Source: Nitrospira sp. (GTDB lineage: Bacteria > Nitrospirota > Nitrospiria > Nitrospirales > Nitrospiraceae). Taken from it: a stretch of 64,000 bases of DNA. Positions 10,314-12,963 of this stretch are shown here, piece by piece; within the stretch, counting starts at the first letter, position 1; every line of letters starts with the position of its first letter. A program made the translations under genes and the position numbers. Where the stretch lies: assembly GCA_022226955.1 (NCBI GenBank), contig CP092079.1, positions 124,001 to 188,000 on the forward strand, written 5' to 3'. The notes under the pieces were generated by a model. It worked only from the letters and a program-made list of their open reading frames with translations. It was not told where the DNA came from and made no database searches.

Positions 10314-10389
10314 GGGCCGTTAGCTCAGTTGGTAGAGCAGCTGACTCTTAATCAGCGGGCCGTAGGTTCGACCCCTACACGGCCCACCA
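10314..10389 (+). tRNA. tRNA-Lys (anticodon CTT)
   Basis: A complete 76-base cloverleaf: acceptor GGGCCGT/ACGGCCC, anticodon loop CTCTTAA with CTT at 34-36, T loop TTCGACC, encoded CCA. Its 3' half plus following A bases is repeated exactly at 12914-12963, which marks this gene as the attachment site of the neighbouring insertion. Confidence 0.98.
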
Positions 10390-10394
10390 AAAAA
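10345..10394 (+). repeat. attL-like 50-bp direct repeat (tRNA-Lys 3' half)
   Basis: From the anticodon loop (CTCTTAA) through CCA and five A bases, this stretch is identical over 50 bp to 12914-12963. Integrases commonly use the tRNA 3' half as attB, leaving such a duplication at both ends. Confidence 0.9.
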
Positions 10395-10749
10395 TCTTCA
10401 TAACAAGAATCTTCCTACCTTCTAGCTAAAACATGCAGTGGAGCTTGCTAACCTAAAAAGACTCCCGACCCCTTTGTTTTTTCCTTTTTCACGGCCCACC
10501 TTGTAGACTTTCTGAATTAATACCTGTGAAAGCGGTGTTGAGGGTGCTGAACTGGCCCCCGTATCAAATCCCGGCTTCTATACCATTGGGAATTGTCATC
10601 CTACCATCATCGGTAAGGCATTGCGGATACCACTTGACTTCACAAAGTAATAGCAGTTAGCTATGCTCCGTTCTCATTTGTAACAAAGAATGAGTCTTGC
10701 CAACACATGGTTGAATTAGAAAGAGAAGAACTAAATCTCTAGGAGAATC
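10395..10749. other. Non-coding left arm of the element
   Basis: There is no credible reading frame in these 355 bases. They contain the tRNA-Lys 3'-end fragment at 10466-10500 and, before the lipoprotein gene, TTGACT (10634-10639) as a possible -35 box without a matching -10. AGGAG at 10741-10745 is the ribosome site of the following gene. Confidence 0.5.
10466..10500 (+). repeat. Degenerate tRNA-Lys 3'-end fragment
   Basis: CGACCCCT (10466-10473) and CACGGCCCACC (10490-10500) are the T-arm and acceptor end of the tRNA-Lys, in the right order, but separated by a T-rich 16-base stretch where the tRNA has a single A. This looks like an old, interrupted third copy of the attachment sequence. 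Confidence 0.5.
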
Positions 10750-12432
10750 ATGAAAAAGCCCCTCACTCTCTGCGCATTAGCAACTCTCATTCTCTCTTTG
10801 GCAAGTTGTGCTACCTACACCTTCCAATCGATGTACCCATCTCATTTTTCAAGCAAGTCACAAAATGACAGGGGCCAAATCCCTTCCTCGGAAATTCCAC
10901 ACGAAATTTTAGAGTCTCTTCCTCCAGACTTCGAACTAGCATATTACTCTGGCCACTTATGGTGTTTTCGTGATTGGGCTGGAAAGGTGCACCTGCTGAA
11001 TCTGATGAAATCCATCCAGCGCACTGAGTGGAGCGACAAATTTCAGCAACAGATGAACTTAGCTCAAGAGGACGAGCAATTTCGTGTGTTTACACCTGTA
11101 GGATACCCCCATGTTTATTGCGTTGTACCAAACGTAGATATCTACGCATTGTTTAACGAGACATGGTTTGAAGGATGGCTGACCTACCTGACCGAATGGG
11201 AAGATGCGGAGCTAGAAATTGAAGCGCTTTGGGAAAGCAATAAGAAGCTGGTTACTGAGATTGCAGATTTAAGAAAGACCATCGCCGAAACAGACGAATC
11301 TATAAAATCATATCAGGCTAGAATCAAGGAGAAGGAAGAATCAATAAAGGCAAATGAATCTGCGATTGCGGATCGCAAGGCAAAACTGGGAATGAAATTG
11401 TTTTCGGTGGAGCCTAAAAAGAAAGAACCGGAGCTACCACCTTTTGACCCCAAGATACCATACGACAGGAAAAATGACCCTTTCCTTAGCGTGGTCACCG
11501 ATCACTCTCAGGATGTATCAAGTAAACCATGGGCAAGTCAGCAAATGAGCGGCGGGAAATATATTGACCCTGAAATGGCCCAGAAAATTGACGAAATCAA
11601 CGCTGCCTTCTCTACGCCGGATAAGATATCAGACCCCGGACTAAAGAAAGATGTAAAGGAGTTAATTAAGAGGGGATTCTCTGGGGTTACAGTAACTTCG
11701 GGGACGAGAACACCATGGCGGCAAGCAGATCTTTATGTAAAAGCGAAGAAAGATGGCACTCCAGTTGGCAAGTATGTTCGAAGCGATCATATGTTTGGCC
11801 AAGCTGCTGACATGACAATACCTGCTGGCTGGGGATGGAATACATCGAATCATAAATTCTTGCGTGCAGTAATGAGGCAATTTGGTGTTGCTATGAACGT
11901 TCCTAAGGACCACGTTCATTTTACGCTGGCGAACCCTTCACATTCCTTCCTGGCTAGAAGGCTAGCAATGGTTCGTGCTTACCATGCGAAAGCGGGGGAA
12001 ATACGACAGGCACAAGGGGCCGTTAAAACGAATGCGATTTTCGAACAGAATAGAATAACCGAACAGAAGGCAAAAGTAGAAAAAGATTTGAGTGACAGAA
12101 AAGACGAGCTTACCAGACAGTCCAATATCTTTGTTCAAGTCTCTGCCAGGTATGTTGAAGTACAACAAGAATTGCAACGTCTGGATGCCGAAATAGCTCG
12201 CAGAGAAGCTGAAGCTCGGAGAGCTGCTGAAGCAGCAGAGCGCCATAGGGATAGGAGAGGCATCGACCGAGAGCCTAGAGGTGGTTGGGAAAGGCCTCAG
12301 CCTGATCCGCCTCCGGTGGACCGAACAGAACCACCACAACGTGAACGGCCTCGCGGAGAACAACCTCGAAGGGAACCTCCGAGTCGAGATACACCCAGAG
12401 AGACCGTACCAGATATAGGACGTATGCCTTGA
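10750..12432 (+). CDS. Lipoprotein with coiled coils and M15 peptidase domain
   Basis: 560 aa. The signal peptide ends in lipobox LASC, with Cys20 the lipidation site. A coiled coil (about 155-215, ELEIEALWESNKKLVTEIA and later) precedes an M15 (VanY/endolysin-type) domain near 285-400 whose zinc motif is complete: S345-D-H347-M-F-G-Q-A-A-D354 and D387-H388-V-H390. A second helical stretch follows, then an Arg/Pro-rich tail with REPPSRDTPRE. M15 enzymes cleave D-Ala or L-Ala/D-Glu bonds of peptidoglycan. The coiled coils suggest it spans the periplasm. Gene composition is more A+T-rich than its surroundings, and it is the only gene of the tRNA-Lys element. Function beyond peptidoglycan cleavage is unknown. 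Confidence 0.85.
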   Translation: MKKPLTLCALATLILSLASCATYTFQSMYPSHFSSKSQNDRGQIPSSEIPHEILESLPPDFELAYYSGHLWCFRDWAGKVHLLNLMKSIQRTEWSDKFQQQMNLAQEDEQFRVFTPVGYPHVYCVVPNVDIYALFNETWFEGWLTYLTEWEDAELEIEALWESNKKLVTEIADLRKTIAETDESIKSYQARIKEKEESIKANESAIADRKAKLGMKLFSVEPKKKEPELPPFDPKIPYDRKNDPFLSVVTDHSQDVSSKPWASQQMSGGKYIDPEMAQKIDEINAAFSTPDKISDPGLKKDVKELIKRGFSGVTVTSGTRTPWRQADLYVKAKKDGTPVGKYVRSDHMFGQAADMTIPAGWGWNTSNHKFLRAVMRQFGVAMNVPKDHVHFTLANPSHSFLARRLAMVRAYHAKAGEIRQAQGAVKTNAIFEQNRITEQKAKVEKDLSDRKDELTRQSNIFVQVSARYVEVQQELQRLDAEIARREAEARRAAEAAERHRDRRGIDREPRGGWERPQPDPPPVDRTEPPQRERPRGEQPRREPPSRDTPRETVPDIGRMP

Positions 12433-12496
12433 AGTTCTAGGCTTCATAGTGAATCTTACTTTTCAAGCTTAAAGGTAAGAGAGGGAGATGGCGGAG

Positions 12497-12538
12497 GCCC
12501 GCTGACTTTTGGCGATTCAGAGTAAAGCTCAGCGGGCC
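12497..12538 (+). terminator. Hairpin after the lipoprotein gene, sharing tRNA-Lys sequence
   Basis: GGCCCGCTGA (12497-12506) pairs with TCAGCGGGCC (12529-12538); CTTT/AAAG extends it past one bulge to about 14 bp. It lies 65 bases after the stop. Its right arm with the next two bases (TCAGCGGGCCGT, 12529-12540) is identical to 12 bases of the tRNA-Lys, so it may be a captured tRNA fragment rather than a simple terminator. Confidence 0.45.
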
Positions 12539-12913
12539 GTTGAGGCTGAGGTATCACAATCTCACCAATTTCAGCCTGAGCGTCCATCACAATGACAGCA
12601 GCTAGAATGATTGATCATTCAGGAACTTGCAGGCCATTACCAGGGAGGGCATCACACTGTGACAACCAGCACGAGAACCCCTAACTAGCCTGGTAACAGG
12701 CACGGACTGCGATAAATTAAGGTCAACTACGTAGACATGAGGTTACTGGTAGGCTCACAGCTTTTTCCTGTGATAATGTGTGCTAGAGGGGGTCAAAATC
12801 ACAGACTCTATCGACTCCATCGAATCTATAGAGCTGTCTGAACCGACTGAAAAACCAAAAGAACGGGGAAACCGTTGATCGATCAAACCCTTGTAAAAAT
12901 GACCTTGTTCGAG

Positions 12914-12963
12914 CTCTTAATCAGCGGGCCGTAGGTTCGACCCCTACACGGCCCACCAAAAAA
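12914..12963 (+). repeat. attR-like 50-bp direct repeat (orphan tRNA-Lys 3' half)
   Basis: Identical to 10345-10394. It begins in the anticodon loop and includes the T arm, acceptor 3' strand, CCA and A-run, but the 5' half of a tRNA is absent upstream, so it cannot encode a tRNA. It marks the far junction of the insertion. Confidence 0.9.

Follow-up and report, generated by a model that had tools for sequence, protein, structure and literature searches.

An integrase-less insertion in tRNA-Lys(CTT) of Nitrospira sp., probably a defective CIME-like member of a tyrosine-integrase island family

In the Nitrospira sp. genome studied here, the 3' half of a tRNA-Lys gene recurs downstream of the gene itself, which raises the question of how the enclosed DNA came to lie there and whether it can still move. 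We analyzed this locus in a window of 64,000 nucleotides (the whole stretch of DNA under study, to which all positions refer) and compared it with other genomes of the genus. Among the labels used below, G000 is the genome under study, G041 is Nitrospira sp. WB-IL-20, G063 is Nitrospira sp. UBA2082 (contig L090), and G060 is N. moscoviensis NSP M-1 (L087); contig L128 is JACQEY010000042.1, L132 is Nitrospira RSF3, L102 is G101, and L041/L042 are G021.

The duplicated tRNA-Lys end and its empty sites

The sequence-only reading of this DNA had claimed an exact 50-bp duplication of the tRNA-Lys 3' half plus A-run, and the repeat search bore this out: positions 10345-10394 and 12914-12963 are 100% identical, 2569 bp apart from start to start. 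The repeat extends from the anticodon loop of tRNA-Lys(CTT) to 5 A's beyond the gene. A 30-mer taken from it occurs at exactly two sites, with no reversed copy, in the closed one-contig genome of 3,635,119 bp, which excludes chance. An intact tRNA gene is followed downstream by its displaced 3' fragment in the same orientation, as in a genomic island, and the credible matches in an Rfam scan were to tRNAs only. The features of the locus are as follows.

10314-10389, plus strand: tRNA-Lys(CTT), the intact target gene (ARAGORN; Rfam RF00005, 72 bits)
10345-10394, plus strand: attL-side core of 50 bp, the tRNA-proximal copy, made up of the tRNA 3' half from the anticodon loop onward and 5 A's past the gene (exact direct repeat)
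10395-10749, no strand: left end of the element, with no integrase remnant and no TGTG[AC]TA arm repeat, unlike the integrase-bearing elements of the tRNA-Lys family
10750-12432, plus strand: gene of the 560-aa lipoprotein cargo, with lipobox LASC (residues 17-20), two long predicted helices (137-218 and 396-502) and an M15-peptidase-like motif SDHMFGQAAD...DHVHF (345-391)
12495-12907, plus strand: conserved right-end module, with 81% identity (320/396 aligned) between it and the corresponding end of the 1.2-kb RSF3 element
12496-12538, plus strand: stem-loop GGCCCGCTGA...TCAGCGGGCC, which the G060 and G063 elements likewise have at their right end
12768-12904, plus strand: putative right integrase arm, with TGTGATA/TGTGCTA repeats at 12769/12779 and then ~120 bp of conserved DNA, 83-88% identical to the G063, L128, G101 and N. 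moscoviensis elements
12914-12963, plus strand: attR-side core of 50 bp, the displaced tRNA-Lys 3' fragment (exact direct repeat)
12964-14167, no strand: chromosomal flank, an intergenic stretch and the beta-barrel gene (13073-14167, minus strand), which in relatives with an empty site lies directly 3' of tRNA-Lys

The comparison of occupied and empty sites, which had been proposed as a check, agreed with the claim of an insertion. In the two closest relatives compared, G041 (contig L121) and G095 (contigs L100/L101), there is a single intact tRNA-Lys, with the same beta-barrel gene no more than about 100-110 bp downstream of it. In G041, where the empty site lies on one contig, the upstream gene is 93.5% and the downstream genes are 89-96% identical to those of our locus; in G095, where it spans two contigs, the upstream gene is 95% and the beta-barrel gene 81% identical. 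Our own flanks, joined with one copy of the core, align to both relatives, and the tRNA-Lys of each is identical to ours over 79 bases, the empty site corresponding to one repeat copy. Synteny around tRNA-Arg/tRNA-Lys in the genus takes in 8917-9474 and 9481-10128 upstream and, downstream, cytochrome c, 14648-15169 and PSP1. Together, the repeat and the empty sites show that the enclosed DNA is an insertion. The G095 assembly is interrupted at tRNA-Lys, where its two contigs share exactly 99 bp, possibly because the sample holds both occupied and empty forms of the site.

Content of the insert and its lipoprotein gene

The enclosed 2519 bp had been described as A+T-richer DNA with a single lipoprotein gene and no integrase, a description confirmed throughout by base composition, reading frames, a PF00589 search and tblastn. 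The GC content is 46.2% vs 57.0% for the 64-kb window, and the only long ORF, that of the lipoprotein, has a GC3 of 0.42 vs 0.61-0.70 in the adjacent genes, so that the expected deviation in both GC and codon use was found. The PF00589 profile detected no integrase domain between the repeats, where the Islander definition would place an integrase gene. Likewise, tblastn with the tRNA-Lys-associated integrases recovered no integrase remnant in the element, its matches being the tRNA itself and one weak match in which right-arm DNA is read as protein. The sole long ORF gave no match to integration or transfer functions, and no phage structural or packaging genes were detected, this gene giving only weak matches to endolysins in PHROGs.

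The stretch between the two helices of the lipoprotein reads SGTRT...SDHMFGQAAD...DHVHF, which resembles the zinc ligands of M15 peptidases (HxxxxxxD...H), with H347, D354 and H390 as the putative ligands here. PHROG endolysin families match the protein weakly (E 1e-4) and no Pfam match was accepted; what Pfam, NCBIfam and PADLOC returned was dismissed as coiled-coil noise. A search with the Pfam M15_4 family gave too few relatives for a profile and no match in the host genome. No homologues were found in 58 relatives, GTDB contigs, IMG/VR, phages or plasmids, and 395 other genomes of the phylum yielded coiled-coil matches only. A Foldseek result was discarded, the single-sequence model of the middle domain having a pLDDT of about 30-45. 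As no more than a lead, the cargo is predicted to be a lipoprotein of the outer membrane and may be a peptidoglycan peptidase. Because sister elements carry defence or defence-like cargo, a protective role would be a reasonable guess, and no more.

The tRNA-Lys(CTT) site across the genus

A 42-mer of the tRNA half, sought in 79 genomes of the genus, was present in 65 and occurred in at least two copies in 16; in nine of the 79 (G000, G060, G061, G063, G046, G067, G087, G090 and G094), two or more copies share a contig, at distances of 0.6-27 kb. The duplicated tRNA half was also observed in another family of the order (G030). G063, G067, G087, G101, G094, G046 and L128 have a tyrosine recombinase gene immediately at the tRNA or core end; decayed or cut integrases are found at the site in G090 and G043, and G061 has an integrase near the distal end. 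The integrases of G101, G067, L128 and G087 are 64-90% identical to that of G063 and form one clade with it, and those of G094, G046 and G061 differ from this clade, which indicates that several lineages use the same site. L128 provides a compact intact model, with tRNA-Lys at 43-118, the integrase at 124-1281 (minus strand), the arm at 6002, and the half-core at 6054-6100. In terms of cargo, SIR2 and HerA are found at this same tRNA-Lys in G063, PD-Lambda-2 B/C and PD-Lambda-3 B in N. moscoviensis, a DNA cytosine methyltransferase in G101, and a Fic protein in G021; with defence or defence-like cargo in the four islands examined, the tRNA-Lys(CTT) site is likely a defence hotspot.

The structures at this site are diverse. 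G090 (L096, L095) carries an array in the order tRNA, 4.1-kb segment, right arm, core, left arm with a broken integrase, 16.9 kb, right arm and core, the 4.1-kb segment harboring ArsC-like and ACR3-like genes that were named by eye only. In G046 (L091:12393-13640), the integrase frame runs antisense into tRNA-Lys, its C-terminus being encoded by the attachment site. In G021 (L042:3318-3649), a CTT-type half-core and right arm occur ~210 bp downstream of tRNA-Lys(TTT), a stripped remnant at a different gene, which may be a secondary site. Many relatives (L049-L056) have, after tRNA-Lys, one or more stem-loop units of ~60 bp, some of them in tandem, consisting of GTGCCG, stem, loop, stem and GATAAACCCCTCCAGTAG.

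Our element shares its right end with this family. The region 12768-12904 has counterparts at the same position in N. moscoviensis (87.5% identity), G101 (87%), G063 (83%) and G090 (79%), with E values down to 2e-42, and G067 matches it in part (75%). A multiple alignment of the right ends revealed a tandem TGTGAT/TGTGCTA repeat and then about 120 conserved bp leading to the core, and the right end of our element has this G063-type arrangement, with the TGTGATA repeat and the conserved ~120 bp beside the core. Tandem repeats of the TGTGATA type would be as expected of integrase arm sites. Sites resembling TGTGATAA number four in the right end, vs 0.37 expected from mononucleotide shuffles. A 32-mer of the right arm occurs once each in 7 of 77 genomes of the genus, and a degenerate form of it recovered nine GTDB records, all from Nitrospira/Nitrospirae, eight of which have it immediately ahead of a tRNA-Lys half that is sometimes worn; none was found in IMG/VR. 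An orphan copy of the right arm on L120 (G041 C5:16932) stops at the first three core bases (CTC) and then runs into unrelated DNA; G041, which holds this copy, has the empty tRNA-Lys site.

The left end is different. In the integrase-bearing elements of the clade that were checked, a TGTG[AC]TA repeat lies ~42 bp inside the tRNA end, and no such left-arm repeat was found in our element, in that of N. moscoviensis or in the 4.1-kb G090 segment. Of the two arm sites that a CIME would be expected to show, the right one is conserved and the left one is not recognizable, with both cores retained (50/50 identical). Our left end matched none of the elements with an integrase, and the integrase-less elements differ from one another in their left ends, a pattern that fits separate, independent losses. 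Within our left end, a third short match to the tRNA end, the 11-bp CACGGCCCACC at 10490-10500, 101 bp past the gene, is a possible scar of an earlier att copy, or else chance. The motif AAAAAGACTCCCGACCCC at 10455 was dropped as a candidate element end, being present in other contexts as well.

Further elements without an integrase and with the same right end occupy the same site: the 1.2-kb element of RSF3, the 7.4-kb element of N. moscoviensis and the 4.1-kb segment of G090. A short element in G067 (C16) was left out as a mini-element, a contig N gap lying beside its right arm. The RSF3 element carries a toxin–antitoxin-like pair, to which homologous DNA exists in the right ends of G060 and G063, where the HTH protein matches HTH_37. 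Over ~410 bp, the right ends of the RSF3 element and of ours are 81% identical; this longer right end was not found in the integrase-bearing elements compared, in which only ~140 bp aligns.

The host genome holds no intact close relative of the G063-clade integrases. Its best match is a broken gene near tRNA-Thr (61% over 69 aa), its intact integrases are about 24-28% identical to the clade over long stretches, and no integrase of the 400-aa clade lies beside the tRNA in our element. At C1:2285666-2286133 and C1:1009908-1010418, the genome has a 429-aa integrase frame by tRNA-Lys(TTT) and a broken integrase by tRNA-Thr(TGT).

Origin and mobility of the element

A site-specific insertion into tRNA-Lys, as the sequence-only reading had proposed, is supported by the empty sites, the composition, and the integrases and homologous distal end of sister species. 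We regard the element as probably a defective CIME-like member of the family of tyrosine-integrase islands found at tRNA-Lys(CTT) across the genus. To judge from that family, an integrase-bearing ancestor would have entered by recombination in the anticodon-loop part of tRNA-Lys(CTT) and supplied its own 3' half, so that the tRNA would have stayed whole and the old 3' half would have been displaced to 12914-12963. The absence of the tRNA-proximal part suggests that it was later lost together with the integrase and left arm. The tRNA and the lipoprotein cargo would have been retained, as would the distal end and the arm repeats in it; the tRNA-side core would survive such a deletion because the tRNA gene is needed. 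Some points speak against this reading. The cores are identical and the distal one is presumably unselected, so that the insertion would be young, or its cores corrected, with little time for decay. Descent from an integrase-bearing element is argued here from the right end alone, and another, older element at this site could have been the source of the left 355 bp and the cargo. As it stands, the element most likely cannot move without the arrival of a cognate integrase. The earlier suggestion had been that the insertion is either decayed or mobilized by an enzyme encoded elsewhere; the former is the better supported of the two, because the genome has no intact close cognate integrase and the element lacks the tRNA-proximal arm.

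A variant of the remnant reading, which we hold to be possible if doubtful, is that the lipoprotein-bearing left part stems from an older or other island and was fused by deletion or accretion to a G063-type right end. Arrays with several half-cores at the site (G090, G067 and G014), the third tRNA-end match at 10490 and a left end without a counterpart among the integrase-bearing elements all speak for such a composite; however, 11 bp may match by chance, neither a full third core nor a second arm was found, and the lipoprotein gene has no relative to show its source. That the mini-element is instead a working satellite, for which two cores and a right arm suffice and which moves as a unit with an integrase supplied in trans, seems unlikely. 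Its main ground is the ~410-bp right end held in common with RSF3, to which the recurrence of one right end and one site in the three other integrase-less elements and the perfect cores of our own can be added. Against this stand the arm repeats present on the left of the integrase-bearing elements checked and absent from G000, N. moscoviensis and the G090 segment, the mutual unlikeness of the integrase-less left ends, as independent losses would leave them, and a host without a cognate integrase. It would be more speculative still to see in our element and that of RSF3 a Nitrospira lineage of integrase-less mini-elements, with a core and right arm only, which the integrases of resident tRNA-Lys islands would move and which would ship single cargo units, for example a toxin–antitoxin pair or an envelope lipoprotein with a possible anti-phage action. 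That the locus reflects an assembly error, or that the tRNA region underwent a segmental duplication having nothing to do with integration, is exceedingly improbable: nothing beyond the general risk with repeats favors it, whereas the genome is a single contig, the inside is compositionally foreign, empty sites exist and, in other species, integrase-bearing elements have a homologue of the inner end at their own corresponding end.

Placed among described systems, the element that we read as a defective island is of a known type, comparable with the integrase-less ssrA islands of Dehalococcoides, and is newly located in Nitrospira. CIMEs have lost their integration and transfer genes and kept attL and attR (PMC5704250). 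Our element resembles them in its att repeats at a tRNA 3' end, its lack of integration and transfer genes and its intact relatives at the same site, but a CIME is defined by attL and attR, whereas our element retains the cores and the right arm and its left arm is unrecognizable. At Dehalococcoides ssrA, 15 islands without an integration module were interpreted as CIME-like (PMC3146451); there too, many islands are stacked at one RNA gene and bounded by copies of its 3' end, some with and some without an integration module at the RNA-gene end, although the target and enzyme are tmRNA and a serine recombinase in Dehalococcoides and tRNA-Lys(CTT) and a tyrosine recombinase in Nitrospira. With the tDNA islands of Islander, our element has in common the intact tDNA, the displaced 3' fragment in correct order and orientation, and the anticodon-centred site; the definition requires an integrase gene inside (PMC4383910), and our element would be filtered out. 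The nearest likeness within the genus is to the islands of G063/L090 and L128, which have the same target, the same core and an 83% identical right arm with TGTGATA repeats, and differ by an integrase of 385-400 aa and a left arm at the tRNA end and by more cargo (SIR2 and HerA in G063).

No published description of a tRNA-Lys(CTT) hotspot in Nitrospira was found in the open-access literature. The site is a recurrent insertion hotspot in these key nitrifiers, for which hardly any genetics exists, and the matched occupied, empty, integrase-bearing and integrase-less sites, for which the core has been mapped and both a conserved arm and a cognate integrase are available, provide a basis for tests of mobilization in trans.
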